Assembly: GCA_913777465.1 (NCBI GenBank)
Contig: CAJYRQ010000025.1
Location: 1 to 36,033 of the forward strand
DNA: 36,033 nucleotides
Reading direction: 5' to 3'
Source: an uncultured Chryseobacterium sp.
GTDB taxonomy: Bacteria > Bacteroidota > Bacteroidia > Flavobacteriales > Weeksellaceae
Part shown: piece after piece, positions 2,525-31,861 of the stretch
Layout of the letters: each line of letters opens with the position of its first letter
Position numbering within the stretch: position 1 is the first letter of the stretch
Made by a program: the position numbers and the translations under genes
Notes under the pieces: generated by a model
Told to the model about the DNA's origin: nothing
The model's input: only the letters and a program-made list of their open reading frames with translations
Database searches by the model: none

Positions 2525-2576
2525 ATATAAATTTCTTAATTTTTGTTTTAAATTTTGAACCGCGTTCGTTGTTTTG

Positions 2577-2622: not shown

Positions 2623-2641
2623 TGGTTTATTTTTCTTTTTT

Positions 2642-2688
2642 CCACAGGTTGCACCTGTGGCTATTTTTGTTCAACCCTTTCAGGGTTT
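2642..2688. repeat. Interspersed palindromic repeat, copy B (best preserved)
   Basis: This copy has two clear hairpin halves: CCACAGGTTGCACCTGTGG, which is a near-perfect palindrome, and AACCCTTTCAGGGTT, also a palindrome. Two stem-loops in tandem fit REP/BIME-like elements. Nothing in the unit codes for protein. Confidence 0.65.
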
Positions 2689-2756
2689 CAGATGATCCCG
2701 TTAATAGGATTTCATCCTTTCTACATTAAACCCTCCCTTCAGGACTTCTTGTTTTG

Positions 2757-5270: not shown

Positions 5271-5350
5271 TAATTTTTTATTTTGTCTGTTATGCTTAAA
5301 CAGGATATTTTTTCATCATCATCTGTGGATATCAAACAAAATTTTAAAAC

Positions 5351-5380
5351 GAGACCTCAACGTATGATAGTCAAGGTCTC
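5351..5380 (-). terminator. Hairpin terminator after the SDR gene
   Basis: GAGACCT and AGGTCTC form a 7-bp stem around a 16-base loop. On the minus strand it is followed by GTTTTAAAATTTT. It lies 34 bases beyond the SDR stop and about 80 bases before the GH95 start, so GH95 may have its own promoter or depend on read-through. Confidence 0.6.
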
Positions 5381-5413
5381 TCTAACTATATATGAAGAAA
5401 ATTAACAAACTTG

Positions 5414-6229: not shown

Positions 6230-6235
6230 TTTTAT

Positions 6236-6263
6236 GATTGATAATTGAAGATTGATAATTGAT
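6236..6263. repeat. Two tandem copies of a 14-base unit
   Basis: GATTGATAATTGAA is repeated head to tail, with the last base changed in the second copy. It fills part of the 52-base uxuA-SDR spacer, next to the SDR start codon. It may be slippage-prone, and no function is evident. Confidence 0.6.
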
Positions 6264-6281
6264 CAAAAGCAAGTGCTGATT

Positions 6282-7454: not shown

Positions 7455-7481
7455 AAGTTTTGAATTTTTCTTCATACTAAA

Positions 7482-7511
7482 CAAAATAGGTGCTTTTCAA
7501 CACCTATTTTG
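7482..7511 (-). terminator. Perfect 11-bp hairpin between susD and uxuA
   Basis: CAAAATAGGTG (7482-7492) pairs perfectly with CACCTATTTTG (7501-7511) around an 8-base loop. On the minus strand the stem's 3' arm ends in TTTTG. It lies 31 bases after the susD stop and within 30 bases of the uxuA start. It probably acts as a partial terminator or RNA-processing stem that separates expression of the SusCD pair from the catabolic genes. Confidence 0.6.
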
Positions 7512-7541
7512 CTGCTAATATGAATGTAGAATAAAATTTAA

Positions 7542-9503: not shown

Positions 9504-9515
9504 GATGATGTAGAT

Positions 9516-12395
9516 TTAAAAAGATAAATTAAGTCCCAATATAAAGTTTCTTGTGGCAGGATTATTGGTTCCGATAATCAGCTGGCGATTTCTGTAGCTG
9601 CTTACCGCCTGGTTTTGATCACCTGTAGAATTCGGCTCAGGATCCATACCGGACATTTTGTGATATGGTGAATAAATTACCAATGGATTTGTAACAGTAA
9701 AGTAAATTCTTAAGCTGTTAATATTAAGATCCTTAAGGAAATCCTTATCTAAGTTATATCCTAATGTCAATGTTCTCAGTTTCACATATGATCCGTCAAA
9801 AAGAGCTAAAGTCGACAGATATTTAGGGTTATCACCACTTAGCAATCCGCCCGGTTTAGGGAATCTTGCGTCTGTATTATCATCCGTATAGTAATCTACG
9901 TCTACGTTATTTCCTCTACCGGTTAACCTGTTTAAGTACCCAGCAGATCCATAAATGGAACTGATCAGAACACCACCTTTCTGGAATGCTCCCACTGTAC
10001 TCAACTCAAATCCTTTGTAAGCAAAACGCATATTGAAACCTCCCTGCCAATCCGGGTTGGTATCTATAATCTGTCTATCTGCAGGACCGATAGCTCTTAC
10101 AGGTGTACCGTCCGCATTATATCCGCCGGTGTATAAAACTTTGATCATACCCGGAGCAGCTCCAACCTGAGGTTCCAAAATATTTAAATAAGGATCTCCT
10201 TTTTGCCATAGACCTACATATTGATAATCGAATAATGAATTTACGTTATGACCAACAAACCATAAGTTATTTTCATCTCTGTCAGCACCTGATGCAAGTG
10301 ATAAAATTTTGTTTCTGTTGGCATACCAGTTAACTCCTGCATCCCAGCTGAAACCATCTGGCTTATCAATAATAATTCCATTAAGGGAAGCTTCCCATCC
10401 TTTGTTTTCGATATCTCCTACATTTTGCAGAACACCACCAGGAATTCCTCCACTTGGCGGTAAACTTTTATTTTGAAGTATACCATAAGTATGTGTTCTG
10501 TAATATTCTACCGTACCGTTAATTCTGTTGTTCAAGAAACCAAAATCCAATCCTGCGTTATGGGTTTTAGAATATTCCCATCCTAACTGTGGGTTTGGTG
10601 CTGTGTTAATAGAAACTCCTGTTGAAAAAGCATTTCCAAAGTTATACGGGTTCACAGTTAAACTTCCTGCAGTTGTATAAGGTGAAATAGCCTGATTTGA
10701 TGTCTCTCCCCAGCCATATCTTAATTTGAATAAATTAACAAACTGGAAATTTTTCATGAAATTCTCATTAGCCACGTTCCATCCAACAGAGATAGCCGGA
10801 TAGGTATTCCACTTATGCCCTTCCGCAAGAACAGAAGCTCCGTCTGCCCGAAGTGTAGCGGTAATCATATACTTGTTGTCATACGTATACATTGCTCTAC
10901 CCATATAGGAAATGAGCCCTGTTCTTGCATAAAATTGATTATTTGGATTTACCGTAATGTCCGCTTGTGGAGACTGACCAAGATTGTAATACTGGAAAAA
11001 ATCTGACGGTACATTTTTAGCACTTATATAGCTGCTTGTAACAGTATTCTGTTCAGAAGAATATAATGCAACCGCGTTGATCTTATGCTTTCCAAAAGTC
11101 TTATCATAAGTCAGTAAGTTTTCTATAGTCCAGTGGTAAGTCTGGCTATTCCCCCTTCCAGCAGAAGAAATGGCAGCAGGATTTGTACTGAATACGCCTA
11201 CTCCTGTATAATTTCCACTGTTTGAAGTTCTGAAATCCAATCCTACATTGATACGGTATTTCAATCCGTCTACTGGTAATTTAACTTCACCATAAACGTT
11301 GTTATATGATGAGAAAGCCATTGTTTCATCTACATATTTATCTCCTAATGCATCAAGAGTTTGTCTAGTATAAACCCATGCCTGATCCATATTCGATGAC
11401 ATCGTTAATGTTCTTCTCGGATTACCGAATTCATCATAAGGACTGGCCAAAGGCGAATATCCTAAAGTAGGCGCTGAAGCAATACCATTTCCTTCGGATT
11501 TTACATAATTGGAATTGGTAGTGAAACCAAATTTGAAACTCTTTCCAACCTGCTGATCCAACCCAACCCTAATACCAAAACGTTCATAGCTTTGCAAAGG
11601 AACAACTGCATCCTGTTTTAGATATGACAATCCAACATTATAGTTACCTCCTTCTGTACCTCCGGAAACTCCAACATCATGGTTGGTAATCATCGCCGGC
11701 TTATAATACAACTTTTGCCAATCTGTATCAACACCATCTTTTTCGCTGTCTCCATTTTTTATAAGATCGCCTGCATCATGCCTTAGTTTCGTTAATTGAG
11801 CACCATTCATCATAGGGTATCTCGAAAACAAAGTCTGGCTTCCTGTAAAAGAGTTATAGGTGAATCTAGGTTTTTGTCCTTTAGATCCTCTGTTTGTTGT
11901 TACCAAGATCACCCCGTTTGCTCCTCTGGAACCATAAATAGCTGTTGCAGAAGCATCTTTCAGGATATCTACACTCTTAATATCACTGGAGCTTATATCT
12001 CCCAGGGATCCTGCAAAAGGAATTCCGTCCAATACCACAAGCGGATCGTTTGCATTGTCTGATAATGATCTCTGTCCTCTGATTCGTATTTTCATGGTTG
12101 CTCCCGGCTTACTGGAAGTCTGATTGATTTCGACCCCTGCACTTCTACTCTGTAGAGCTTGTGTAATATTGGCCGTAGGAACTTCTCTTAGGGTTTCACC
12201 TTTTACAGTTACTACCGATCCCGTTACAGCTTCTTTTCTTTGGGTACCATATCCGATGACAACTACTTCCTCTATCTTTTTCTCCTTGGGCACCGTATCT
12301 TTTTTTACCTGAGCATACGCCATGCCGGCAGGTAATAAGGCCATGGCAAAAAAGAGGGCCGCCTTATTGGTTTTTGAAAAATAAAATCGGTTCAT
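9516..12395 (-). CDS. SusC/RagA-family TonB-dependent outer-membrane transporter
   Basis: A 959-residue beta-barrel transporter that imports oligosaccharides across the outer membrane with TonB energy. The signal peptide is about residues 1-29 (AGMAYAQ). A SusC-type TonB box, EEVVVIGYGTQ (42-52), follows almost at once, then the plug domain (about 55-165) with KIRIRGQRSLSDNANDPLVVLDG, VDILKDASATAIYGSRGANGVI and the barrel ending in LRIYFTVTNPLVIYSPY and NFILGLNLSF. The carboxypeptidase-D-like regulatory domain common before the plug in this family is absent, which explains the shorter length. It is paired with susD 12 bases downstream. No promoter box was seen in the 96-base gap upstream, so it may be read from xylA. 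Confidence 0.96.
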   Translation of the reverse strand: MNRFYFSKTNKAALFFAMALLPAGMAYAQVKKDTVPKEKKIEEVVVIGYGTQRKEAVTGSVVTVKGETLREVPTANITQALQSRSAGVEINQTSSKPGATMKIRIRGQRSLSDNANDPLVVLDGIPFAGSLGDISSSDIKSVDILKDASATAIYGSRGANGVILVTTNRGSKGQKPRFTYNSFTGSQTLFSRYPMMNGAQLTKLRHDAGDLIKNGDSEKDGVDTDWQKLYYKPAMITNHDVGVSGGTEGGNYNVGLSYLKQDAVVPLQSYERFGIRVGLDQQVGKSFKFGFTTNSNYVKSEGNGIASAPTLGYSPLASPYDEFGNPRRTLTMSSNMDQAWVYTRQTLDALGDKYVDETMAFSSYNNVYGEVKLPVDGLKYRINVGLDFRTSNSGNYTGVGVFSTNPAAISSAGRGNSQTYHWTIENLLTYDKTFGKHKINAVALYSSEQNTVTSSYISAKNVPSDFFQYYNLGQSPQADITVNPNNQFYARTGLISYMGRAMYTYDNKYMITATLRADGASVLAEGHKWNTYPAISVGWNVANENFMKNFQFVNLFKLRYGWGETSNQAISPYTTAGSLTVNPYNFGNAFSTGVSINTAPNPQLGWEYSKTHNAGLDFGFLNNRINGTVEYYRTHTYGILQNKSLPPSGGIPGGVLQNVGDIENKGWEASLNGIIIDKPDGFSWDAGVNWYANRNKILSLASGADRDENNLWFVGHNVNSLFDYQYVGLWQKGDPYLNILEPQVGAAPGMIKVLYTGGYNADGTPVRAIGPADRQIIDTNPDWQGGFNMRFAYKGFELSTVGAFQKGGVLISSIYGSAGYLNRLTGRGNNVDVDYYTDDNTDARFPKPGGLLSGDNPKYLSTLALFDGSYVKLRTLTLGYNLDKDFLKDLNINSLRIYFTVTNPLVIYSPYHKMSGMDPEPNSTGDQNQAVSSYRNRQLIIGTNNPATRNFILGLNLSF

Positions 12396-12426
12396 AATTA
12401 TTATTTTTAAATATTAGGGTTAAAAT

Positions 12427-12481
12427 AAAAAGGCTGGTAATAATTATAGTTTTAATAATCCTTAGTGTTTAGCAGCCTTTT
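12427..12481 (-). terminator. Stem-loop terminator between xylA and susC
   Basis: AAAAAGGCTG (12427-12436) and CAGCCTTTT (12473-12481) form a stem with a loop of about 36 bases. On the minus strand the stem is followed by TTTTTATTTT, the pattern of a rho-independent terminator. It starts 11 bases after the xylA stop. Partial read-through could set the xylA:susC ratio. Confidence 0.5.
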
Positions 12482-12491
12482 CATTTATTTT

Positions 12492-13820
12492 TTAGATATA
12501 CATATTCACAATAGCTTCAAACAATTCCTGTTTTCCGCTTTTTGGCTGAGGTTCCCCAATTTCATGTGCGATTCTCTGAAGATCCTCTAACGTAAGAGAT
12601 CCTTCTTCAAATGCCTTTCCGTGCCCGTTGTCAAAAGAAGCATAGCGGTCTGTTCTTAATTTGTTGTAATCCGAATTTTCAAGAATATCGGCAGCAGCCA
12701 GAAGTCCTTTGGCAAATACATCCATTCCTGAAATATGAGAGATGAATAAATCTTCAGGATCGATAGAGTTTCTTCTGATTTTAGCGTCGAAGTTTACCCC
12801 TCCTTTTCCTAGACCTCCTGCTGGCAGCAATACCAACCATGCCTGAACCATTTCCAGATAATCTACCGGGAACTGATCGGTATCCCATCCGTTCTGATAA
12901 TCTCCTCTGTTCGCGTCGATGCTTCCTAACATTCCTGCATCTACTGCTGCCTGAAGCTCGTGCTCGAAAGTATGCCCTGCCAATGTAGCATGATTTACTT
13001 CGATATTTAATTTAAAATCTTTATCTAATCCGTAATATCTTAAGAATCCGATTACCGTTTCAGAATCGTAATCGTACTGGTGCTTGGTAGGCTCCATCGG
13101 CTTAGGCTCGATCAAGAAATTCCCCTGGAAACCTTGCTGACGGGCATAATCTCTGGACATTGTTAAGAAACGTGCTAAGTGGTCTTTTTCACGCTTCATA
13201 TCCGTGTTCAGAAGGCTCATGTATCCTTCTCTTCCACCCCAGAACACATAATTTTCTCCTCCTAGTGCAATGGTTGCATCAATAGAGTTTTTTACCTGAG
13301 TTCCGGCACATGCCAATACATCAAAATTCGGGTTGGTAGAAGCTCCGTTCATGTATCTTTCGTGGGTGAAAACGTTTGCCGTTCCCCAAAGAAGCTTAAT
13401 TCCCGTTTCTGCCTGCTTTTGCTTGGCATATTCTACAACAGCCTGAAGATTTTTCTCGTAATCTTTCCAGTTGTCTGCAGGATCTACCAAGTCGATGTCG
13501 TGGAAACAGTAGAAATTGAAGCCCATTTTGGACATAAATTCAAAACCTGCATCCAGCTTGTGCATCGCTCTTGTTACGGGATCATTTCCGATATCCCAAG
13601 GGTGGTGAATGGTTGCCCCCCCGAACGGATCGCTTCCGTTAGCACATAAGGTATGCCACCACGCCATTGCAAAACGGGTCCAGTCTTTCATCGGTTTCCC
13701 CATGATTACTTTTTCTGCATCATAATAGCGGAACGCCATCGGATTTCGGCTCTCCTTTCCTTCAAACTTAATCTTATCGATCCCTGTGAAAAACTCTTTC
13801 GTACCTGTTAAAGTGTTCAT
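12492..13820 (-). CDS. xylA: Xylose isomerase
   Basis: A 442-residue cytoplasmic enzyme interconverting D-xylose and D-xylulose (EC 5.3.1.5). It has the length of the class II enzymes. Catalytic and metal residues are all present: H107 in [12 protein letters not shown]238 in [17 protein letters not shown]274 and H277 in [18 protein letters not shown]302 in IDANRGD, D313 and D315 in GWDTDQFP, and D345 in NFDAK. It lies downstream of xylulokinase and upstream of susC in one orientation. This gene is the firmest evidence that the locus serves a xylose-based polymer. Confidence 0.98.
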
Positions 13821-13902
13821 ATTTGTCTTATTTATTTTTTAATTTTATTTACATTTTTGCATAAAAACTCCCGGCTCACTGATTTTTTGATTGTCAGTAA
13901 GT

Positions 13903-13921
13903 ACAATGGAATTTCCGTTGT
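13903..13921. promoter_or_regulatory. Palindrome upstream of xylA, operator candidate
   Basis: ACAATGGAATTTCCGTTGT is a 19-base palindrome with a single mismatch between arms. It lies in the 107-base xylB-xylA spacer, about 83 bases before the xylA start. The one-base centre is too small for an RNA loop, so a protein-binding site is more likely than a terminator. No TAnnTTTG box was found beside it. Confidence 0.3.
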
Positions 13922-13927
13922 CGTTTC

Positions 13928-15412
13928 TTAAATTATTTCATGAAGATGGTTTTTCCATCTCGAATAGGCTTCTAAATATTGTTCGCGCTTCTCGTGTTCC
14001 GGCTCTATGACGGCGATTTTTTCCAGTGATGAAAATGCTTCTTTTGAATCCGCATAGAATCCGATGCCTATTCCCGCAGCCCTGGCAGCACCTACAGCAC
14101 CGTCGGTATCATAAAGTTCAATCACCGCATTGCTGACGCTGGCAAGCGACTGGCGGAAAATCGAACTTAAAAACATATTGGCATTTCCTGCCCGGATCAC
14201 CTGGATGTCCATCCCGATGTTCCGCATAATGTTCATTCCATATTCGTACGAGAAGACGATTCCTTCCTGCGCCGCGCGCAGAATATCCCCTTTTGAGTGG
14301 ATGTTAAAATTGATTCCGTGGATCGAGCAGCTGGTATCTTTATTTTCCAGTACCCTTTCCGCTCCGTTGCCGAATGGGATAATGCTTAATCCTTTGGATC
14401 CGATCGGCGAAAGCGAAGCCATATCGTTCATATCTCCGTAAGAAGAAAGTGAAGTGGCAAAATTATGCTTCAGCCATGAGTTGAGGATCCCGGTTCCGTT
14501 GATGCAAAGCAGAACGCCCAATCTTGTCTGTTCCGGGGTGTAATTTACGTGGGCAAAAGTATTGACCCTGGACAGTTTATCATACTCCAGCTGATCCAGT
14601 ACTCCATAAACGACTCCTGAAGTTCCTGCGGTGGAAGCGATTTCCCCCGGGTTGAATACATTCAGTGACAAGGCGTTATTCGGCTGGTCTCCTGCCCTGT
14701 AGGAAATCGGGGTTCCTTCTTTTAATCCCAGTTCCTGAGCAGCGGCTGCAGAAACCGTAGACTGGATTCCGAACGTCGGTACGATTTTCGGGAAGAAGCT
14801 TTTCGGGATTCCGTAATAGTTGATGACATCTTCCGAAATGCAGTTGTTTTTAAAATCCCAGAAAATCCCTTCGGACAATCCTTCTATTGTGATTCCGATC
14901 TGTCCGGAGAGTCTCATCGCGATATAGTCTCCCGGAAGCATGATCTTATCTATTTTTTCAAAAATCTCAGGTTCGTTTTCTTTTACCCAGGCCAGTTTGG
15001 AAGCGGTAAAGTTTCCCGGTGAATTCAGCAAATGCGATAAACATTTTTCTTCTCCGATGGCCTTAAAAGCTTTTTCCCCATAAGGAACGGCACGGCTGTC
15101 GCACCAGATGATGGAGGGTCTCAGCAGGTTCTGGTCTTTGTCCACGAGAATAAGACCATGCATCTGCCAGGTAATACCGATTCCTTTGATGTCTTCCGCC
15201 TGTACGCCGGATTCGTGCATCACGGCTTCATGGGCAAGCTTAAGATTGGTCCACCAGTCCCCCGGATTCTGCTCTGCCCAGCCCGGATGGATTGCCGTAA
15301 TTTTCATTTCCTTTTTCGGAGAAAATTCTGAAGCAATCACTTTTCCGCTGGATGCCTCGATGAGACACACTTTTACAGAAGAACTGCCGATGTCATAGCC
15401 TAATAAGTACAT
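13928..15412 (-). CDS. xylB: Xylulokinase
   Basis: A 494-residue FGGY-family carbohydrate kinase that phosphorylates D-xylulose to D-xylulose-5-phosphate (EC 2.7.1.17) for the pentose phosphate pathway. Visible motifs are the phosphate-binding YLLGYDIGSSSVKV (2-15), GWAEQNPGDWW (44-54), GITWQMHGL (79-87), RPSIIWCDSRA (98-108) and YRAGDQPNNA with the catalytic base D242, followed by ASTAGTSGVVYG in the ATP-binding half. It is 107 bases upstream of xylA and 16 bases downstream of the Nudix-type regulator, so the three most likely share a transcript. The context of xylA makes xylulose the substrate over other FGGY sugars. Confidence 0.95.
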   Translation of the reverse strand: MYLLGYDIGSSSVKVCLIEASSGKVIASEFSPKKEMKITAIHPGWAEQNPGDWWTNLKLAHEAVMHESGVQAEDIKGIGITWQMHGLILVDKDQNLLRPSIIWCDSRAVPYGEKAFKAIGEEKCLSHLLNSPGNFTASKLAWVKENEPEIFEKIDKIMLPGDYIAMRLSGQIGITIEGLSEGIFWDFKNNCISEDVINYYGIPKSFFPKIVPTFGIQSTVSAAAAQELGLKEGTPISYRAGDQPNNALSLNVFNPGEIASTAGTSGVVYGVLDQLEYDKLSRVNTFAHVNYTPEQTRLGVLLCINGTGILNSWLKHNFATSLSSYGDMNDMASLSPIGSKGLSIIPFGNGAERVLENKDTSCSIHGINFNIHSKGDILRAAQEGIVFSYEYGMNIMRNIGMDIQVIRAGNANMFLSSIFRQSLASVSNAVIELYDTDGAVGAARAAGIGIGFYADSKEAFSSLEKIAVIEPEHEKREQYLEAYSRWKNHLHEII

Positions 15413-15428
15413 AGTATAAAGGAGGGTA

Positions 15429-16145
15429 TTATTTAATTAGTTTCGTATTGTTTTTCTTAAAGACCTTGGCATCAAACTTATAATATCTGGCGGCACGGTG
15501 CGATACATTTTTTTCAATTTCATCCAACGGCACGATATAGTTGAAGGATGATATTTTTTTATGAAAGTTTTTGATATCTATATATTTTTCGCTCAGCGCG
15601 CTGTACAGCTGGTAAAGCTGTCTGATCGTAAATCTTTTCGGCAGAAGCTCGAAAATAATCGAGAAATCCGACTCGATCCACTTTCTGATCTCGATCAGCG
15701 ATTCACTGATGATTTTATTATGGTCGAAGGGCAGTGAAGGCACCTGATCGATCGGGAACCAGTCTACCGTGCTGTATTTGGTGCTGTTGATCTTATGATC
15801 GATCTTGCAAAGCGACAGATACGCTACGGTAATAATCCGGTCGATATGATGCTTATACTCCTCTCCCATCCAGTTGATGTCTTTTTCATTATTCGCCCTC
15901 ATCGGGTCTGCAAAACATTTAAACTGCTTCAATACCATTTTTCTGATCCCTGTAAGCTCGTGAAGAACTCTTTCTGCTGCATCGTCTACATCCTCATCAC
16001 TAAAAATAAGACTTCCCGGAAGCTTAATCTGCTTTTCCGCATCCAGATGCCTTTCCACGAGTAAAATATTCAATCTGTTTTCATGGTCAAATCCAAAAAC
16101 AACACAATCAACAGAAACATAGGTATGTATAAATTCAGGGCTCAT
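15429..16145 (-). CDS. Nudix-domain sugar-responsive transcriptional regulator (NrtR/AraR type)
   Basis: A 238-residue protein with a Nudix fold (about residues 8-140) and a C-terminal winged helix-turn-helix (about 165-230, LPKRFTIRQLYQLYSALSEK). The Nudix box is present in outline, G44 to I67 (ending RVLHELTGI), but two of the REUxEE glutamates are Val60 and Leu64, so hydrolysis is unlikely and the domain is better read as an effector sensor, as in the NrtR-type AraR of Bacteroidetes. The ATG at 16143-16145 is preferred over the upstream TTG at 16175, which overlaps a promoter box. It is the first gene of the locus, 16 bases before xylB, so it probably senses xylose, arabinose or a phosphorylated product and controls this operon. 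The ligand is not shown by sequence. Confidence 0.88.
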   Translation of the reverse strand: MSPEFIHTYVSVDCVVFGFDHENRLNILLVERHLDAEKQIKLPGSLIFSDEDVDDAAERVLHELTGIRKMVLKQFKCFADPMRANNEKDINWMGEEYKHHIDRIITVAYLSLCKIDHKINSTKYSTVDWFPIDQVPSLPFDHNKIISESLIEIRKWIESDFSIIFELLPKRFTIRQLYQLYSALSEKYIDIKNFHKKISSFNYIVPLDEIEKNVSHRAARYYKFDAKVFKKNNTKLIK

Positions 16146-16172
16146 TAAAGTGTTAACATTTATGTAACATGA

Positions 16173-16180
16173 CAAATATA
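16173..16180 (-). promoter_or_regulatory. Promoter -7 box candidate for the regulator-xylB operon
   Basis: On the minus strand this reads TATATTTG, an exact match to the Bacteroidota -7 consensus TAnnTTTG, 27 bases upstream of the regulator ATG. No convincing -33 TTG sits at the usual spacing. AAGTGTTAACA next to the start codon (16147-16157) and CTAACACTTAA upstream (16215-16225) are inverted copies of one motif and may be operator halves on either side. Confidence 0.4.
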
Positions 16181-16276
16181 AAAATTCAGATGAATAAAAA
16201 AAATATTTTTATTGCTAACACTTAAATATCAGTAATTTACATATCGATTTTTTATGATAACAATTGTATATTATTA

Positions 16277-16292
16277 ATGATAAGGTTATCAT
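16277..16292. promoter_or_regulatory. Palindrome ATGATAA-GG-TTATCAT, operator candidate
   Basis: Perfect 7-base arms around GG in the region upstream of the Nudix-type regulator. The size fits a dimeric DNA-binding protein. Whether it is bound by this regulator is unknown. Confidence 0.35.
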
Positions 16293-16431
16293 ACTTATGA
16301 CACTTACAAATATTGTAAGAGATCATTTTACAAGCATTTATATAAAAAATTCACACAAAAAAGGCCTTATTTTTTCCGGTAAAATATTATGATAAGAATT
16401 GTTAAAAAATATTTTTAAAAAAAATATAAAC

Positions 16432-16450
16432 AAGTGTAAAAAAAACACTT
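16432..16450. promoter_or_regulatory. Inverted repeat AAGTGT-N7-ACACTT, operator candidate
   Basis: Six-base arms separated by an A-only spacer. The AGTGT core also occurs in AAGTGTTAACA next to the regulator start (16147-16157) and, inverted, in CTAACACTTAA at 16215-16225. The recurrence within 300 bases is the reason to note it. Confidence 0.35.
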
Positions 16451-16684
16451 TTATAGCCGAAAAAGCATTAAAAAAACATTAATTTTTTTACCGTTTTTGT
16501 ATGTAAGGCTCACTAAAGTTATAAAAAGTGGAATTTTGGCAAATGTTTACATGATGCGGGAAGGCTTTTAAAATCGGATGTAATTAAAATTACCGGGTAT
16601 ACCTGTAATGGGCAGGGCATTTACAATCAATTATGATGGTCTGACTATTATACCAGATCCCATTCATGTTGTTTTATCAAACGG

Positions 16685-16853: not shown

Positions 16854-17000
16854 ATGCAGGACCACACAAACAAAGTTGCGCTGGTATCGGGTGCGAATAC
16901 CGGGGTAGGCTTCCAGATCAGTAAAGCCCTTATAGAAAACGGATACACGGTGTATACAGGCTCCCGCGACCTGCAAAAAGGAAGAACAGCAGCTCGCTGA
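16854..17000 (+). pseudogene. 5' fragment of an SDR oxidoreductase gene
   Basis: The first 48 codons of a short-chain dehydrogenase: an ATG, then NKVALVSGANTGVGFQISKA, which contains the dinucleotide-binding loop SGANTGVG (TGxxxGxG type), then ENGYTVYTGSRDLQKGRTAA and a stop. The catalytic half is missing. Within the last codons the sequence switches to a different frame that encodes the end of an AraC-type regulator, so a deletion has fused two once-separate genes. The fragment differs from the intact SDR at 22435-23247 (MNQTIFITGASSGIG). Confidence 0.8.
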
Positions 17001-17191
17001 TCGGGCAAAACGCCTGGCAGTATATTCGCAGCAAGCTCATTGAAAAAGACAAGGAAAAACTCATCGGAACCGATCTAGCGGTAGCAGAGATCGCCTATGA
17101 GCTGGGATTTGAACACCCGCAGTCGTTCAGCAGGATGTTCAGGCTCCGGACGGGCCTGTCGCCGCTGGAGTTCCGGGGTTCTTGTGAATGA
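16985..17191 (+). pseudogene. 3' fragment of an AraC-family regulator gene
   Basis: About 64 codons in the frame ending TGA at 17189-17191 encode the second helix-turn-helix and tail of an AraC regulator: LIGQNAWQYIRSKLIEK, then VAEIAYELGFEHPQSFSRMF and TGLSPLEFRGSCE. No start codon or N-terminal part is present. From 17041 to the stop it is about 90% identical in DNA to 24493-24643 in the AraC gene further right. The two copies lie in the same orientation, either side of the helicase gene. Confidence 0.85.
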
Positions 17192-17412
17192 GACAGGAAA
17201 TCTACGGATTTTTCAAAAAAGAATATTTAATTAAGATTTTAAACCCGAATGGTATAAACGGAAAATTTTATTTTACAAAATACTCAAATATTATGGTATT
17301 TGTTTTTCCGTTTATTATATTTTATTTAATTTAACCAATCTGAAATTAAATAAAGATTAATAAGCACTTTTTTCATTCAGACATATAAAAACAAAATAAC
17401 TATTGATTTACT

Positions 17413-20400
17413 TTGACAGAAATAGAGAAGCATATTGGCCTTATTTCTTATATCGATACGGAAATTGAACCTACCAGTCGCAAAATCCTTGATATCGGAG
17501 GAATAAAAGAAGACGGAAGTTCGTTTCATAAGACTTCTGTTACAGAATTTATTCAGTTTATTGAAACAACTCCATTTATCTGCGGGCATAATATCATCAA
17601 GCACGACCTTAAATATATCTGGACAGCTATCCGTGATGCAGGAATTGATGCTAAAAACATTATCGACACCCTGCCCCTTTCCCCTTTACTCTTTCCTACA
17701 AAACCTTATCATGCCCTTTTAAAAGACGATAAAATTCAGACAGAAGAGGTTAATAATCCTCTTTACGATTCCATTAAAGCAAGGGATTTGTTCCACGATG
17801 AAATAGAAGCTTTTTACCGGACCGATGAGAATCTCAGGCAGATCTTCTACCTGTTATTGAAAGACAAAAAAGAGTTTGCGGGTTTTTTCCGTTTTATCAA
17901 TTATACCGGAAAGGAACGTGATACCGAAGAGCTGATCCGGCAGAAATTCAGGAATCATTTCTGTGAACATGTCGATTTGGCAAAAATAATAGAAACCTAT
18001 CCTATCGAATTAGCTTACTGCCTCTCACTGGTTGACTCTTTCGTTCATCATAAAAAAATCCACTCCATTACTCCGCCCTGGGTGCTGAAGAACTATCCGG
18101 AGGTGGAAAGATTAATGCTGATGCTGAGAAACAGGCCCTGCATCAAAGGATGTACCTATTGTCATGAAGCATTGGATATATACAAAGGTTTAAAAAAGTT
18201 TTTCGGCTTCGATTCATACCGTAAGTATGCTGGTGAGGCCCTACAGGAAAAAGCAGTGCAGGCTGCCGTAAACAATAAATCCCTGCTTGCCGTCTTCCCG
18301 ACGGGCGGTGGAAAATCCATTACTTTCCAGGTACCTGCTCTGATGGGCGGAGAGAATTCAAAGGGCCTTACGGTTGTGATCTCACCTTTACAGTCTTTGA
18401 TGAAAGACCAGGTGGATAACTTGGAGAAAAACAATATTACGGATGCCGTCACAATCAATGGATTACTCGACCCTATCGAAAAGGCCAAATCATTTGAAAG
18501 GGTGGAAGACGGATCCGCTTCCCTTCTGTACATCTCTCCGGAATCACTGCGTTCGAAAAGCATCGAGCGACTGATGCTGGGAAGAAAGATCATCCGTTTC
18601 GTCATCGATGAAGCGCATTGCTTTTCATCATGGGGACAGGATTTCAGGGTAGACTATCTTTATATAGGTGATTTTATCAAATCTATCCAGGAAAAGAAAA
18701 ACCTCGATTACCGCATACCCGTTTCCTGTTTTACCGCTACGGCAAAACAAAAAGTAATAGAAGATATCCGGAATTACTTCAGGGAAAAACTGGATCTTGA
18801 CCTTGAATTATTCACATCAAAAGCATCAAGGACGAATCTCCGGTACAGAGTTTTTGAGAAAGCTGATGAAGAAGAAAAATACCAGGCCGTCCGCGATCTG
18901 ATAGAGGAGAAAAACTGTCCGGCGATTATCTACGTTTCCCGGACGAGGAAAGCCTACCTGCTTGCAGAAAGATTAAGCAAAGATGGTTTTGACGCAAAGC
19001 CATATCATGGAAAAATGGACAAGCAGGAAAAATCTGAAAACCAGGATTCCTTTATCAGCGGTAAAACACAGATTATGGTGGCCACGTCTGCTTTCGGAAT
19101 GGGCGTAGATAAAAAAGATGTGGGTTTGGTGATTCATTACGAAATTTCGGATTCGCTTGAAAACTATGTCCAGGAAGCGGGAAGAGCCGGGAGAGATGAA
19201 AATATTGTTGCCGAATGCTATGTGCTGTTTAACGAAGAGGATCTTGGCAAACACTTTATCCTGCAAAATCAGACCAAACTCTCCATTAAGGAAATACAGC
19301 AGGTTTGGCAGGCTATTAAAGCCATTACCAAATTCCGGTACACGGTTTCCCATTCTGCGTTGGAAATCGCCAGAAAAGCAGGCTGGGACGATAATATCAT
19401 GCAGATCGAAACGAGGGTAACGACCGCTATTGCAGCCCTGGAAGATGCCGGATACCTAAAAAGAGGACAAAATATGCCGCGGGTCTTTGCCAACAGTATT
19501 TTAACCAAAAATGCCCAGGAAGCCATCGACAAAATCAATCTATCCGCAAGATTTACGGAGAAGCAGAAAGAGAAAGGAATCAGGATCATCAAGAAGCTTT
19601 TTTCAAGCAAAAGCCGGAAGCAGACAAACGAAGAAACGGCAGAATCGAGGGTCGATTATATCAGCGACCATCTGGGTATCGTGAAGGAGGAAGTAATCAA
19701 TATCATCAATCTTTTACGTGAAGAAAAAATCTTAGCCGATACCAAAGACCTTACCGCTTTTATAAAAAAAGGAGAAAATAAAAACCGCTCCCTCAATATT
19801 CTGGAGACTTTCTGTAAAATTGAAAATTTCCTGCTCTCTTTTGTCGAACAACAGGAACAGATTTTCCACATCAAGGAACTTAATGAAAAAGCGGAACAGG
19901 CAGGATGTTTAAACAGCAATACGCAACAGATAAAAACAGTCTTCAACTTTTGGTCGATCAAAAACTGGATCAAAAGACGCAGCATGGAATATTCTAAAAA
20001 CCATTTGGCCCTTGCTGCTTTGTATCCCACGGAACTTTTAAAAGACAAACTTGAAAAAAGGCATGAACTGGCCGGTTTTATTGTTGATTTTCTGTATGAA
20101 AAAAGCCTTTCGGAAACTTCAGAAGATGACGCAGGCAAACAGGAAGTACTGGTGGAATTTTCCGTTCACGAACTGAAATCCGCTTACGAAAACAGCCCGA
20201 ATCTGTTTAAAAGGGATATAGTCCTGGAAGATGTCGAAGATACCTTGTTTTATTTATCAAGAATTGAAGCGATAAAAATCGAGGGCGGCTTTATGGTGAT
20301 CTATAACAGGCTGACCATCGAACGTACAGAACAGAACAACAATAAACGGTATACAAAGGAGGACTATCAGAGGCTGCATCAGTTTTATGAAAATAAAGTC

Positions 20401-22266
20401 CAGCAAATTCATATTGTCGGAGAATATGCAAAGAAGATGATTACCGATTATCAGCATGCGTTACAGTTTGTAGAAGATTATTTTCAGTTAAATTATTCAT
20501 CTTTTCTCAGTAAATATTTTAAAGGCAGCCGGCAGCAGGAGATCTGCCGTAATCTTACACCGGCAAAGTTCAGACAGCTTTTCGGAGAACTCTCGCCAAC
20601 CCAACTCAAAATTATCAATGATAAGGAAGCACAGCATATTGTGGTAGCTGCGGGACCGGGAAGCGGAAAAACCCGGGTTCTTGTTCATAAATTGGCTGCC
20701 CTGCTTTTAATGGAAGATGTGAAACAGGAACAGTTGCTGATGATTACGTTTTCCAGGGCGGCAGCAACAGAATTTAAAAAGCGGCTGATCCGACTGATCG
20801 GGAATGCAGCGCAATACGTGGAGATAAAGACTTTTCATTCGTATTGTTTTGATTTATTGGGTAAAGTGGGAAACCTGGAAAAATCTGATCTGATTATTAA
20901 AAAGACGATCGAGAAAATAAAAAATGGTGAAGTGGAAGCCAGCAGGATCACCAAAACCGTTTTGGTGATTGATGAAGCCCAGGATATGAATGAGGATGAG
21001 TACCTGCTTATCAATACGCTGATGGAGCAGAACGAAGAGATGCGGGTGATTGCGGTAGGCGATGACGATCAGAATGTTTATGAATTCAGAGGCTCCAGCT
21101 CAAAATATCTGGAAGCATTTATTTCAAACAACAGCGCCGTAAAGCATGAACTGGTTGAAAATTACAGAAGTAAAAACAACCTGGTAGCCTTAGCAAATGA
21201 ATTTGTAAAGCAGATCCCTCACCGACTGAAGAATACCCCGATCGTACCTGTACAAAATGATAACGGAAAAATAAAAATCATTAATTACAAAAATAGAAAT
21301 CTCATTGTCCCTCTGATTGAAGACCTGCTTCATACCGGTCTGTCCGGTACGGCCTGTGTACTGACGAAGACCAACCATGAAGCTTTGCAGATTACCGGCT
21401 TGCTTTTAAAAAATAAAATACCGGCAAAACTGATCCAGACCAATGACAATTTTAGTTTGTATAACCTTGTGGAAGTCAGATTTTTCCTGGACCGGTTGAA
21501 TTTATACAGTGATGCTTTTACCGTCAGCGATGAAGTTTGGGATTCCGCCAAACAAGAGGTAAAAAATAAATTTCACAGCAGTAATAAATTAGAGATCTGC
21601 ATCAACATCATTAAAGAATTTGAAGCGACCAACACGAAGAGAAAGTATAAATCCGATCTGGATGCATTTATCAGGGAATCAAAGCTGGAAGATTTTTTTA
21701 ATACCAACGGTGAAACGGTTTTTGTTTCCACCATTCATAAAAGCAAGGGAAGGGAATTCGACAACGTTTTCATGCTGCTTGAGAATTTCAGTCTCTCAAC
21801 AGATGAGGCCAAAAGGCAATTATATGTAGCCATGACCAGGGCAAAAAACAACTTAACCATCCATACGGATGCTACATTTCTGGATCATTTTTTCATTGAA
21901 AACCTGACCCGGACCCAGAATAAAGAAACATATTCACAGCCGGACGAATTAGCTGTGCACCTAACATATCAGGATGTATATCTGGACTTTTTTCTTAACA
22001 GCCAACACCTGATTTCCGGGCTTACCTGCGGTGATTTGCTGATTTTTTATGGAAATATTTGTATGAATTCCTGCCACCAGCCTGTTCTGCAATTCTCTCA
22101 GCGTTTTATCGAAAAAATAGAAACCCTGAAAAAACAGTCATACGAATTAAAAACGGTAAAAGTGAACTTTATCGTTTACTGGATGAAAGAAAATACAAAC
22201 CAGGAAATAAAAATTATCTTGCCGGAAGTCTGTTTCAAAAAAATTGGTCCTTCTACAGTCGGTTAG
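17413..22266 (+). CDS. Exonuclease-like/RecQ/UvrD triple-domain helicase
   Basis: A 1617-residue protein. Residues 1-130 resemble a DnaQ-like 3'-5' exonuclease: IDTEI (D15, E17), GHNIIKHD (59-65) and NNPLYDS (114-120), though the third motif is not canonical. A C-x3-C-x2-C-H cluster is at 243-251. RecQ domains span about 275-610: FPTGGGKS (K301), IDEAHCFSSWGQDFR (D399, H402), CFTATAK and QEAGRAGRD (587-595). Residues 610-1050 hold winged-helix-like and unassigned helical sequence. A UvrD/Rep SF1 helicase spans 1060-1490: AAGPGSGKT (K1086), LVIDEAQD (D1187), VGDDDQNVYEFRG, STIHKSKGREFD and VAMTRAK. Start is TTG, the only option after an in-frame stop at 17404-17406; the first internal Met would remove the nuclease domain. 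Likely roles are DNA repair or replication-fork processing, or defence. No partner gene is adjacent. Confidence 0.9.
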   Translation: MTEIEKHIGLISYIDTEIEPTSRKILDIGGIKEDGSSFHKTSVTEFIQFIETTPFICGHNIIKHDLKYIWTAIRDAGIDAKNIIDTLPLSPLLFPTKPYHALLKDDKIQTEEVNNPLYDSIKARDLFHDEIEAFYRTDENLRQIFYLLLKDKKEFAGFFRFINYTGKERDTEELIRQKFRNHFCEHVDLAKIIETYPIELAYCLSLVDSFVHHKKIHSITPPWVLKNYPEVERLMLMLRNRPCIKGCTYCHEALDIYKGLKKFFGFDSYRKYAGEALQEKAVQAAVNNKSLLAVFPTGGGKSITFQVPALMGGENSKGLTVVISPLQSLMKDQVDNLEKNNITDAVTINGLLDPIEKAKSFERVEDGSASLLYISPESLRSKSIERLMLGRKIIRFVIDEAHCFSSWGQDFRVDYLYIGDFIKSIQEKKNLDYRIPVSCFTATAKQKVIEDIRNYFREKLDLDLELFTSKASRTNLRYRVFEKADEEEKYQAVRDLIEEKNCPAIIYVSRTRKAYLLAERLSKDGFDAKPYHGKMDKQEKSENQDSFISGKTQIMVATSAFGMGVDKKDVGLVIHYEISDSLENYVQEAGRAGRDENIVAECYVLFNEEDLGKHFILQNQTKLSIKEIQQVWQAIKAITKFRYTVSHSALEIARKAGWDDNIMQIETRVTTAIAALEDAGYLKRGQNMPRVFANSILTKNAQEAIDKINLSARFTEKQKEKGIRIIKKLFSSKSRKQTNEETAESRVDYISDHLGIVKEEVINIINLLREEKILADTKDLTAFIKKGENKNRSLNILETFCKIENFLLSFVEQQEQIFHIKELNEKAEQAGCLNSNTQQIKTVFNFWSIKNWIKRRSMEYSKNHLALAALYPTELLKDKLEKRHELAGFIVDFLYEKSLSETSEDDAGKQEVLVEFSVHELKSAYENSPNLFKRDIVLEDVEDTLFYLSRIEAIKIEGGFMVIYNRLTIERTEQNNNKRYTKEDYQRLHQFYENKVQQIHIVGEYAKKMITDYQHALQFVEDYFQLNYSSFLSKYFKGSRQQEICRNLTPAKFRQLFGELSPTQLKIINDKEAQHIVVAAGPGSGKTRVLVHKLAALLLMEDVKQEQLLMITFSRAAATEFKKRLIRLIGNAAQYVEIKTFHSYCFDLLGKVGNLEKSDLIIKKTIEKIKNGEVEASRITKTVLVIDEAQDMNEDEYLLINTLMEQNEEMRVIAVGDDDQNVYEFRGSSSKYLEAFISNNSAVKHELVENYRSKNNLVALANEFVKQIPHRLKNTPIVPVQNDNGKIKIINYKNRNLIVPLIEDLLHTGLSGTACVLTKTNHEALQITGLLLKNKIPAKLIQTNDNFSLYNLVEVRFFLDRLNLYSDAFTVSDEVWDSAKQEVKNKFHSSNKLEICINIIKEFEATNTKRKYKSDLDAFIRESKLEDFFNTNGETVFVSTIHKSKGREFDNVFMLLENFSLSTDEAKRQLYVAMTRAKNNLTIHTDATFLDHFFIENLTRTQNKETYSQPDELAVHLTYQDVYLDFFLNSQHLISGLTCGDLLIFYGNICMNSCHQPVLQFSQRFIEKIETLKKQSYELKTVKVNFIVYWMKENTNQEIKIILPEVCFKKIGPSTVG

Positions 22267-22405
22267 CTGGTCAGAATTCAATATTTCATGCTTATGCAGA
22301 AACAATATCAATTGATCCGTTTCATCTTGTCCTTTTTTACGAAAGGCATTCCATTTTGGCTACGACAATTACCATTTAGGCTTCTCCTATGCTTGGCCGG
22401 TAAGA

Positions 22406-23723: not shown

Positions 23724-24643
23724 ATGAAATCTAGAGAAATTCATCATCCCAGGCATTTCCGGACGCTTTCCGAAATGCAGCACGCACTGAACCTTCCCAA
23801 GCCGGCGCATCCTTTAATCAGCTTGCTGGATTACCGGGAAGCCGCCATTACCAATGAGATGCTGTCCTTTGATTTTGTGATGGATTTTTATCACATTACC
23901 TATAACGATTCTTCGGGATGCCGGATGAAATACAGCCAGACGACCTACGATTTTAATGAGGGCGGCATGTGCTTTACCTCACCCGGACAGTCTTTGGCAG
24001 GCATCTCATCTTCGGGAAACCCTGCAGGTTTTACCCTGCTGATCCACCCTGATTTTTTCCGGGGCTATCCGTTGGAACGTAAAATCAAAACGTACGGCTT
24101 TTTCTCCTATTCGATTAATGAAGCGCTTTATCTGTCGGACAAAGAGAAAAATATCATCACCCATATTGCCGGTACGATCAACGATGAACTGAAAACATCA
24201 ATCGATGATCTGAGCCAGGATGTCCTGATTTCCCAGGTAGAGCTTCTTCTGACCTACAGCCAGCGGTTCTACAAAAGGCAGTTCATTACCCGTAAGATCA
24301 TCAACAACGATTTGCTAAGCAAAATGGAAATGCTGCTCGATGCGTATTTCCATTCGGAAAAGCCGTCATCGAAGGACTCCCGACCGTAAAATACCTGTCG
24401 GATCAGCTGAAAGTTTCCCCGCGTTATCTCGGGGATATGCTCCGGTCGGTTACCGGATTCAATACCCAACAGCACATCCACATGAAACTTATCGAAAAAG
24501 CGAAGGAAAAACTCATCGGAACAGATCGAACGGTAGCAGAGATCGCTTATGAACTGGGCTTTGAACACCCGCAGTCGTTCAGCAAAATGTTCAGGCTCCG
24601 GACAGGCCTGTCGCCGCTGGAGTTCAGAGGTTCTTATAATTGA
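23724..24643 (+). pseudogene. AraC-family transcriptional regulator, frameshifted
   Basis: Two frames together encode one AraC regulator of about 306 residues. The first (to a TAA at 24387-24389) holds the N-terminal sensor region and ends in the off-frame residues PSSKDSRP after YFHSEK. The second continues with EGLPTVKYLSDQLKVSPRYL, the start of the first helix-turn-helix, through LRSVTGFNTQQHIHMKLIEK and VAEIAYELGFEHPQSFSKMF to FRGSYN. Adding one A to the run AAAA at 24358-24361 restores the full protein, so this is either a sequencing error or a recent inactivating deletion. As read, the protein lacks DNA-binding helices and would not regulate. It probably controlled the SDR gene upstream. 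The 3' end duplicates the relic at 17041-17191. Confidence 0.85.
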
Positions 24644-24666
24644 TGTGAATGGTGAATGGTGAATCC

Positions 24667-24806
24667 TGCTCCGCAAGTCAATTTTGCTTCGCAAGTGAAT
24701 TTAAACGGCATAGAAAATGACTATTCATCCGAAGGAATTGACCATTGACAAAAAGTGAAAGGTGAATTCTGTTTTACAGGTCAATGATGCTTCGCAAGTG
24801 AATTTA
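24667..24806. repeat. Three copies of TGCTTCGCAAGTGAATTTA
   Basis: Exact copies at 24685-24703 and 24788-24806, and a diverged copy (TGCTCCGCAAGTCAATTTT) at 24667-24685. They fill the convergent gap between the AraC gene and the response regulator. The inner GCTTCGC could form small stems. No gene is present here. Confidence 0.7.
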
Positions 24807-28915: not shown

Positions 28916-29674
28916 TTACCCTAGTCCCTGCCATTTCATTTGGGTCCGGGCAAGCGTATATTTCAACAGCTTTACCGGAAAACGGATCCGCCATACCTTG
29001 GCAGCGGGAAGCTCCAGATGCTCGGCGATCATAAGGTAAGTCACTGCGATCATCGCAAGGTTATGACCTTGCGGCAGCAACATCGGGAACAGCATCAATG
29101 CCCAGCCGGAACCCACGCACCAGAGGCCGTGCTTTACACCGAACTCCAGCGAATCGCGATAAGCGTCCCATCCGAAGGCACGTAAGGCATAATGATCATG
29201 GCTGAGGTTGAGAAACTTCTGCTTCACCGGCGAAAACTGCCACACCACTGCAATGGTCAACACGCCCAACGCAGGAAGGTACGATCCCGGCATCAAAAGA
29301 TTTAAACCGATGATAATGCCTACCATAAATACCCCCGCTGTCATCCATACCGTAAGATAGCCTAGCACAAACCATACGGAGCATATCAACCGGTACCGTC
29401 TCAGGCTCTGGAGATAAATGGCCTGGACAGGCACGATCAGTTTAGGCAGCATCATGGCAATGACCATCAGTCCCCAGCCCGTGAGCTGCGAAGAAAATGG
29501 ATTCATCTGCAACAGCATTTTCAGGGAAGCAGCCGACGGTCCGGCGGCAGAAATGTGGCAATGTTCCATTGTCATGATATGGCCTGGATTTACCAGCAAC
29601 AGCAGCCAGGCGACGAGGCTGATCCAGATGATCACAAAGCCGATCTTAAAACGGTCAGTTCCTGAAAGTATCAT
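28916..29674 (-). CDS. DUF2182 integral membrane protein, possible copper handling
   Basis: A 252-residue membrane protein with about six hydrophobic segments. It carries the DUF2182 (COG5486) hallmarks: a helix with GWGLMVIAMMLPKLIVPVQA and a second block GVKHGLWCVGSGWALMLFPM. Met-rich, His-containing stretches, MTMEHCHISAAG near the N-terminus and HCH in particular, could bind metal. The family is annotated as predicted metal-binding, but no reaction is established. It starts 7 bases after the tyrosinase stop in the same orientation, which makes copper delivery to, or copper handling with, that enzyme the best guess. A bidirectional terminator lies downstream. Confidence 0.8.
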   Translation of the reverse strand: MILSGTDRFKIGFVIIWISLVAWLLLLVNPGHIMTMEHCHISAAGPSAASLKMLLQMNPFSSQLTGWGLMVIAMMLPKLIVPVQAIYLQSLRRYRLICSVWFVLGYLTVWMTAGVFMVGIIIGLNLLMPGSYLPALGVLTIAVVWQFSPVKQKFLNLSHDHYALRAFGWDAYRDSLEFGVKHGLWCVGSGWALMLFPMLLPQGHNLAMIAVTYLMIAEHLELPAAKVWRIRFPVKLLKYTLARTQMKWQGLG

Positions 29675-29681
29675 GATCCGA

Positions 29682-31343
29682 TTATTGGGCTACACGGTAA
29701 ACACTGATCCGGTCGATGGTCAGGTCATTGTTCTCCGGCAGAGGATTCTTGGTTTTGATCACCACATTCAGCGCGCTGAGATCGACCTCGTTGTCCAGGT
29801 ACAGTTCGTCGATAACATTGGTGATATTCAGGGTAAACGTTAGTCCCGAACCTCCGTGCGCACCGTCTTTCTGCGATGCCATCCGGATTCCGAAAAGCGC
29901 CACCGATCTTACGAATTTATCATTCACAAATACCGAAAGGAAATTGGAATTGTTGGTTCCTTTCACGTTTTCCAGCTGAAGAAATACCTCATCCGGCAAT
30001 TTGGAAACGGAAGCATTTTTCAGGCTCTTTGAAACGGTTTTCCACGATGGGGTATCCAGCTTCACTACGGCTTCCGTTTCTCCGCTGTTCAGCGACAGGG
30101 CACCGGCATTGGCCCCGATGATTTCATGTCTCTTTTTTTCGCTCATTGGGATTTTATTTTCAGGAACGGACGCGCCCAGTTTATTTAACCGCTCCGTTAA
30201 ATTTTCAGGTTCAGCCTTTGGAGCAGCCGTTTCGTATGAAGTTAAAGACAGATCGTCGTAGGTGTAAGAATAGGGAGATCCGTTAAAATTAAGACCGGTG
30301 GTGCTGTCAACATCCGCCGGAGTATAGTACCACGGAGTTCCTTTGGCATCCAGGGGCATTGCAAACTGCGAATTACCGTGTGCGGAAGGCCCTTTCAGCC
30401 AATCGGGCTGGTCGGGATTGCTGTTTTTACCGGTAACGTTCCACGCATCCCACATCCGGTCGATATTGGCATGGTGCAGGTAAAAGATGGGGTCCAGCCC
30501 GGCTGTCGGAGGATCGGACATCAGGCCTTCCACCTTTTCCAGGTTTGGATCAGGGTCTGTCCAGGTCTTTCCGTCAAAGCCGCCTACCATAACGTGTACG
30601 AAATTATGGGGATTGGATTCCAGGTCTCCGAAACCGCCGTTGCTGTGGCTGAATCCCGTCTCCTGCCCGCCGTAATAATAGCCGTACAGGTTGCCGGTTC
30701 CCGTCTGTCCGGGCGAAGATTCGCTGTAGATGGTATCCAGCTGGCATTTGTCGTTGGCCATCGGATCATCCGGGCTGTCCGGTCCTACCACGACATACAC
30801 ATTGCCGTCGCCGTTCGGGCCATATCGTTCCGGCACATACAACGGATTGGGTGAACCGTCAGGCAAAGTTTTCACCGTGAATGCCGTTGGAATTTTAGAT
30901 TGGTTACCGGGAGCCGACTGGTTCAGATAATTCCAGTACGGTAATGCCCAGTCGGCCGGTCCGCCCAACTGTTCCACGATAATGGTACGGAGCAGGTTTT
31001 CGAGAGCCACGAGGTATCCCCGGTGCCATGGCGGGAAAAACCAGGTACCATGCTGGCACTGATCCCAGAACAGCTCATACACCTGGGCCGGAGGAAGTGA
31101 AGAGAGTTTAGCTCCTGCCGGGATGTACGGGATGTCCGTCCAGTTCGGATAGCCCACCGGCGGCTCCCCGGTATTGTTATTGACCAGATACTGACCGTGC
31201 ACCGCGGCATAGAACCACCAGCTGGTGGCATCATCAATCGGTTTCGCCTGCATTACCTGCACCGCCTTCGCGTACCATAAAAGATCCGGATTGTCGAATG
31301 TCCCGTTGTTGTTCCAGGCATTCTTTCTTGTAAATGTTGTCAT
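29682..31343 (-). CDS. Tyrosinase/polyphenol oxidase (type-3 copper protein)
   Basis: A 553-residue enzyme expected to oxidise mono- or diphenols to quinones with O2. CuA ligands are H49 (AAVHGQY), H98 (DQCQHGTWFFPPWH) and H107. CuB ligands are H246 and H250 (NPHNFVHVMVGG) and the H290-H291 pair (DPIFYLHHANIDRMWDAW). C96 and H98 make a CxH motif, as in fungal tyrosinases and molluscan haemocyanin where Cys and His are cross-linked by a thioether. Residues about 410-553 form a beta-rich C-terminal domain (SVFVNDKFVRSVALFG) that recalls the KFDV domain of plant polyphenol oxidases and could cover the active site. No signal peptide or Tat motif is visible, so it is probably cytoplasmic or exported otherwise. 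It is followed by the DUF2182 gene. Confidence 0.93.
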   Translation of the reverse strand: MTTFTRKNAWNNNGTFDNPDLLWYAKAVQVMQAKPIDDATSWWFYAAVHGQYLVNNNTGEPPVGYPNWTDIPYIPAGAKLSSLPPAQVYELFWDQCQHGTWFFPPWHRGYLVALENLLRTIIVEQLGGPADWALPYWNYLNQSAPGNQSKIPTAFTVKTLPDGSPNPLYVPERYGPNGDGNVYVVVGPDSPDDPMANDKCQLDTIYSESSPGQTGTGNLYGYYYGGQETGFSHSNGGFGDLESNPHNFVHVMVGGFDGKTWTDPDPNLEKVEGLMSDPPTAGLDPIFYLHHANIDRMWDAWNVTGKNSNPDQPDWLKGPSAHGNSQFAMPLDAKGTPWYYTPADVDSTTGLNFNGSPYSYTYDDLSLTSYETAAPKAEPENLTERLNKLGASVPENKIPMSEKKRHEIIGANAGALSLNSGETEAVVKLDTPSWKTVSKSLKNASVSKLPDEVFLQLENVKGTNNSNFLSVFVNDKFVRSVALFGIRMASQKDGAHGGSGLTFTLNITNVIDELYLDNEVDLSALNVVIKTKNPLPENNDLTIDRISVYRVAQ

Positions 31344-31415
31344 GTTTAATTTTTAATACAGTGGTTAAAAAGTTATTTTAAAAATTTTAGCGTTTTGTTT
31401 TTTAACGATGCTTTC

Positions 31416-31423
31416 CAAAGTTA
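31416..31423 (-). promoter_or_regulatory. Promoter -7 box candidate for tyrosinase-DUF2182
   Basis: On the minus strand the bases read TAACTTTG, matching TAnnTTTG, 72 bases before the tyrosinase ATG. No -33 element at normal spacing. Confidence 0.35.
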
Positions 31424-31823
31424 AAAGATCTTTTAGAAAAAAGATTCCGTATAAATACGCAATTGCTTATTCACGGATCTTGAGATAACATCAGGGTTTA
31501 AAAAGATTATTATTAACGTAAGTCCGGCCGTATCAACATTATATTCAACCTATTATTTAATTCAAAAATAAAAATGAGGCTGACCCAGCCGGGATTTTAA
31601 ATATCACTCATCTTGCCGGAACAAATAAACGGTTTATGCTTCTGATAGAATTTGCTCCTATCCATACAAAGCCGTCCATTCAGAACTTTAAAATAATATA
31701 AATCTGTCCCTTATTAAAAAGAAATAAGGCCGGTTATTCAGGTTTAAATAAGAACTCCTTGGAAAAAGCGATAACCTATTCAGTTTGATGATCAAGATAC
31801 TGATCCTATGTTTGATAAGAGAA

Positions 31824-31859
31824 ACTTCCGGCATCCGGCTTCCCTCTTCCAGCCTGTCC
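31824..31859 (+). repeat. Dispersed CTTCCGGCATCCGGCTTCC repeat
   Basis: ACTTCCGGCATCCGGCTTCC followed by CTCTTCCAGCCTGTCC. It ends 2 bases before the stop codon position of the minus-strand LodB-like gene, so it forms the start of that transcript's 3' tail. It is the closest match to the 23592-23626 copy, 8 kb away. Confidence 0.65.
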
Positions 31860-31861
31860 AT

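Follow-up and report, generated by a model that had tools for sequence, protein, structure and literature searches.

What does a gene do that joins an exonuclease to two different helicase motors in a single chain? The window analysed here, a stretch of 36,033 nucleotides from an uncultured Chryseobacterium sp., carries such a gene at positions 17413-22266 (stop codon included). It lies on the plus strand, as do all its domains, and is open throughout from a TTG start; the first start found in the copies at loci L027-L030 is likewise TTG. The encoded protein, of 1,617 aa, has the order exonuclease, cysteine block, RecQ, probable winged helices, UvrD. A limited literature search found no published account of this architecture, and in the annotated plasmid copies (six of six examined) the sole label is 'RecQ family ATP-dependent DNA helicase'. 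An earlier note, made from the DNA alone, had read three enzyme folds in this chain, and the Pfam motors, the profile-profile comparison and the modelled nuclease fold all agree with that reading.

An exonuclease and two helicase motors in one chain

Residues 259-622 (18187-19278) form an SF2 motor of the RecQ type, with Q278, GGGKS at 298-302, DEAH at 399-402, R591 and R594, supported by Pfam, NCBIfam, PDB sequences and conservation. Residues 1051-1490 (20563-21882) form an SF1 motor of the UvrD/Rep/PcrA type, with GSGKT at 1083-1087, DEAQ at 1187-1190, R1252 and R1476, supported by Pfam and conservation. The Pfam matches above cut-offs are DEAD (277-451), Helicase_C (488-594), UvrD-helicase (from 1061) and UvrD_C (to 1484); NCBIfam and Pfam together place the motors at about 260-630 and 1055-1490, and PDB sequences agree. 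The two complete motor sets that the note had described, with K301, DEAH 399-402, K1086 and DEAQ 1187-1190, were thus confirmed. Counted over 76 selected full-length relatives, the motor residues checked are invariant, save A1189 (75/76). The first motor exceeds the cut-off of the RecQ family model TIGR00614 (271.5 against 219.8 bits) and falls short of the curated cut-off of the RecQ equivalog TIGR01389 (310.3 against 640.2 bits, best stretch 260-630). The second has UvrD-helicase and UvrD_C with Walker motifs, as expected of SF1A enzymes, and scores far below the UvrD and PcrA equivalogs (TIGR01075, 119 of 1144.45 bits; TIGR01073, 126.4 of 911.2 bits). RecQ and UvrD motors both belong to 3'-5' families, and the same polarity is presumed here.

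No Pfam model finds its strongest stretch inside residues 1-260, 650-1050 or 1491-1617. The last of these (21883-22263), the C-terminal region, is less conserved and has no library match. Behind the RecQ motor, no Pfam match to the RecQ zinc, RQC or HRDC domains was seen up to E 1; since the structure model predicts a winged helix after the motor, this may be a divergent RQC. The linker of about 440 residues between the motors (610-1050) had been said to hold no nameable motif and perhaps a novel domain. The first part stands, as no library model names a domain there; the second is not supported: the structure model suggests, with moderate confidence (pLDDT 76.5, pTM 0.49), tandem winged helices, probably a row of them over residues 623-985 (19279-20367). 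Residues 986-1050 (20368-20562) are, by conservation and the model, a conserved helical stretch leading into the UvrD motor, and the helicase IV model NF008276 matches over residues 977-1152.

At the N-terminus, conservation, profile-profile comparison and predicted structure place a DEDD (DnaQ/RNase T-like) exonuclease fold at residues 10-136 (17440-17820). Pfam gave no match to a DnaQ-like domain; the profile-profile comparison found one with probability 74.3 and E 2.7e-5, against probabilities of 0.0-1.5 for three column-shuffled controls. The model of residues 1-262 (pLDDT 90) comprises this exonuclease plus a helical block, and its best structural match is Staphylococcus aureus DinG. The DEDD-like nuclease proposed from the letters is therefore upheld by both approaches, residues 1-136 of the model folding like an exonuclease. 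The four acids are almost always present: each of the 74 relatives with a residue there has D15 and E17, and D65 stands in 76/76 and D119 in 75/76. DEDDh enzymes (DnaQ, RNase T, TREX) carry a His five residues ahead of the last Asp. At this site, position 114, the relatives have Asn (71), Ser (4) or Lys (1) and neither His nor Tyr, so that the third motif is non-canonical, as had been noticed; the domain has the RNase H-like fold with four acids in three motifs, without the His of the DEDDh class. H100, invariant among the relatives, could be a stand-in, and from sequence and model we infer nuclease activity despite the absent histidine. Between the exonuclease and the RecQ motor, the helical block (residues 137-258; 17821-18186) contains four invariant cysteines, C184, C243, C247 and C250, which the note had overlooked and which make up a candidate zinc site.

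A sporadic and transferred gene

The gene is single-copy in its own genome, which has two further RecQ-like genes (37-39% identical over the RecQ part). It occurs in 5 of 59 genomes of close relatives, its own included, one of which (G021) has two copies on separate contigs. Across the phylum, near-full-length relatives were found in 15 of 395 genomes (own included) and 12 of 170 genera, so homologues are not universal. In the named collection at least 80 loci were retained from 587 candidates, and the phyla in titles and tree labels, among the matches listed, are Bacteroidota, Bacillota, Thermodesulfobacteriota, Lentisphaerota and Balneolota. Matches at 1e-40 occur in 175 plasmid records, six of which cover at least 80% of the query; the other plasmid matches among those listed are about 26-32% identical and include Pseudomonadota and Cyanobacteriota. 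IMG/VR yielded 11 loci, nine matching over at least 60% of the query, and 25 phage records match, none over 80%. On a plasmid of Nostoc sp. ATCC 53789 the order is a DEAD/DEAH helicase gene, an IS1634 transposase gene and then the match, which looks like a split copy. The gene lies in two pieces at 6 of 107 loci, all of them MAGs.

At the same locus of a genome of the same genus (G033), about 5.1 kb is missing (17190-22298). There, some 62 bp separate positions 17188 and 22299; the variable segment therefore contains the 17413-22266 gene alone, and this genome has no match to the protein at 1e-100. The difference may reflect either gain or loss. No mobility gene lies in the segment, and no target-site duplication was seen by eye. 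The note had described the gene as isolated, which is right within the 36-kb contig, and as flanked by repeats. The latter is partly right, in that a single 174-nt direct repeat flanks it: the left copy (17018-17191, plus strand) is the end of a broken AraC-like gene (by eye) and abuts the left edge of the segment, and the right copy (24470-24643, plus strand) is 86% identical to it. By eye, these are parts of two AraC-like genes and not the ends of a mobile element. Remnants resembling an SDR and an AraC-like gene were seen by eye upstream (16857-17190); the AraC-like ORF downstream (23724-24645) is probably broken too, because it has 221 aa against 306 aa in G014. Short intergenic repeats occur at 31811-31861 and 24652-24806; the first matches four places in one stretch (L172) of the genome that lacks the gene, so it is likely to be a dispersed repeat.

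The copy from another class (G089) is 77% identical to the protein, and that from the same genus (G034) 73%. This, the 15 of 395 genomes and the empty site indicate, by genome comparison, that the protein is not housekeeping. A tree of 76 rows groups its members strongly by phylum: the Bacteroidota label changes 6 times where shuffled labels average 17.8, the Bacillota label 4 times where they average 11.4, and 0 of 500 shuffles came as low. Transfer between phyla is therefore limited. Family labels are mixed: the eight families with at least two rows need 15 changes, the least possible being 7, and a single clade of Sphingobacteriaceae, a group picked after the tree was seen, was rejected (p-AU 3.5e-7). 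Many of the rows are MAGs, so some of the mixing may be wrong binning that mimics transfer. Over the whole gene, comparison with the 84% copy of G021 gives a dN/dS of 0.084, and comparison with the 96% copy of G014 one of 0.144. For the exonuclease domain it is 0.108 against the 84% copy; the value of 1.08 for the nuclease part against the 96% copy of G014 has very few changes behind it. The ORF is a real, conserved and moving single-gene family, and the gene is under purifying selection, sporadic, transferred and without a recurring partner gene.

Neighbourhood and likely role

The neighbours in the window are sugar-utilisation, regulatory and oxidase genes, with no defence genes among them. 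A polysaccharide-utilisation locus occupies 806-16175 on the minus strand (GH43, GH95, SDR, UxuA, SusD, a TonB-dependent receptor, a TIM-barrel protein, an FGGY sugar kinase and an NrtR-like NUDIX regulator). At 28916-34953, a PpoB2-like copper chaperone, a tyrosinase with DUF7868, an FAD-binding halogenase-like protein and a LodA-type lysine oxidase may form a quinone-cofactor oxidase group.

When 1,271 ORFs from 107 loci, duplicates among them, were clustered, no recurring partner emerged; the broadest cluster, by eye one of histidine kinases, reached 11 loci. For comparison with the 136 nearest flanking genes of 89 loci, 112 control genes were taken from 10 carrier genomes, in which 16 stretches had been fixed beforehand. 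At 1e-10 the flanking genes matched 196 PADLOC models and the controls 9, figures that count models and not proteins, as one protein may match many and model-rich families inflate them. At 1e-60 there remained 25 models for the flanking genes (methylases, type IV and II restriction, AbiEi and PDC candidates) and one of the 9 for the controls (DpdF, at 3e-114). Among the best 25 of 152 Pfam families, none occurs in more than 3 of the 136 flanking genes (Fic 3; McrBC, ResIII and Schlafen 2 each; HindIII 1), and no single defence family is thus closely linked to the gene. A neighbourhood survey for defence genes had been proposed in the note; in the one made here, the PADLOC counts favour defence indirectly, and no family recurs. 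In 18 carrier genomes, 25 N6-methylase matches fall under 1e-50, of which two, in G088 and G405, lie no more than 20 kb from the gene, a slight enrichment.

Among distant plasmid copies (26-30% identity), one is near a type I RM system, one near Cas genes and one near a viperin-family gene. The viperin-family gene at 15754-16587 of locus L215 is some 4 kb away from the Nostoc plasmid copy that looks split. In G146, a second RecQ-like gene (764 aa; 14169-16463 of L040, the same place as L090) stands some 2 kb away from the long gene.

On this evidence we regard the protein as a horizontally moving single-gene DNA-processing machine, which most likely, with a chance somewhat above even, defends its host against the DNA of invading phages or plasmids. 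Patchy presence, transfer, the empty site and the excess of PADLOC models over controls argue indirectly for this reading, as do copies on plasmids and IMG/VR contigs, distant plasmid copies near defence genes and the precedent of Hna. Against it count the ordinary neighbours in the window, the want of a recurring defence family, the PADLOC matches to motor parts only (best 25 of 64 families), the third motif without His and the limited transfer between phyla. The defence or mobile-element role that the note had thought possible draws on the same points, but not on the window's own neighbours. In the mechanism that we propose, the row of winged helices would, with the cysteine block, hold a junction of the invader's DNA, either branched or between single and double strand, as in intermediates of replication or recombination. 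Both motors, RecQ and UvrD, would unwind this DNA and strip it, and exposed 3' ends would be taken off by the N-terminal DEDD exonuclease, so that the invading element fails to replicate. A bolder form, which we advance tentatively, is a hitherto undescribed RecBCD-like two-motor immune enzyme in one gene, built from RecQ and UvrD with an exonuclease lacking the usual general base. Unaided, and in many phyla, it would recognise foreign DNA that is replicating and destroy it.

RecQ, UvrD and exonuclease-bearing DinG are repair enzymes, and the nuclease model resembles DinG. An accessory enzyme for repair or replication restart, acting on the host's own recombination intermediates or stalled forks and patchy since dispensable and exchanged between strains, would fit this and the ordinary neighbours described above, with no defence family recurring in more than 3 of 136 genes beside relatives. 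Such a role has perhaps one chance in a few: the gene is in few genomes of the phylum, is absent from a genome of the same genus and is accompanied by two other RecQ-like genes in its own, and defence models are commoner beside its relatives than in controls. The composition of position 114 would also suit a nuclease fold that is non-catalytic, binding 3' ends or nucleotides and regulating the motors of a remodeller that degrades nothing; this is compatible with the other readings and, with D15, E17, D65 and D119 kept, the domain constrained against the 84% copy and H100 as a possible replacement, rather unlikely. That the protein serves mobile elements, aiding the replication or recombination of plasmids and integrative elements or their competition with rivals, with chromosomal copies as leftovers, is improbable: one plasmid copy adjoins ParA, ParB and replication genes, another has ParA about 6 kb off, and among 89 genes around the IMG/VR loci six match an integrase family and six an invertase family (possibly the same proteins), but the segment in the window has no mobility gene, many chromosomal copies sit among ordinary genes (by eye, no count), and strong selection persists.

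If the defence reading is true, a hidden immune family could be tested by transferring a single gene, and two normally separate motors would be seen combined with a nuclease in one chain.

Comparison with known systems

WRN likewise carries its exonuclease ahead of a RecQ motor on the same chain, and the RecQ parts align; it is a eukaryotic repair enzyme with other C-terminal domains and no UvrD motor. The DinG of S. aureus and B. subtilis has an N-terminal exonuclease and a DinG/XPD-type motor, without a UvrD motor, in contrast to the RecQ plus UvrD found here. The first motor scores as RecQ, and no DinG model appears among 16 Pfam families or the best 25 of 42 NCBIfam families. RecBCD and AddAB unite motors and nuclease in a machine of several subunits with another nuclease family and no RecQ motor, whereas the 1,617-aa protein is one chain with RecQ. 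The defence proteins DpdF, PsyrT and GajB match in their RecQ-type or UvrD-type motor parts, the best stretches listed each covering one motor only. Among the best 25 of 64 anti-phage families matched in PADLOC 2023, none covers the protein along its length, each having its best stretch in one motor part.

The closest counterpart in operation is Hna (helicase-nuclease abortive infection) of Sinorhizobium, described as a single-gene defence with an SF2 motor and an exonuclease, present in about 2% of bacterial genomes (PMC13381803). Like the gene studied here, it joins an SF2 motor to an exonuclease in a single gene. Unlike it, Hna has 845 aa, one DinG-like motor and a C-terminal PD-(D/E)XK nuclease, and the parts of the account considered here name no RecQ, UvrD or DEDD domain for it (PMC13381803). 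Pfam found no PD-(D/E)XK nuclease in the 1,617-aa protein, region 1491-1617 being judged from its residues alone. The best reading is that the protein would work like Hna while probably belonging to a different family.
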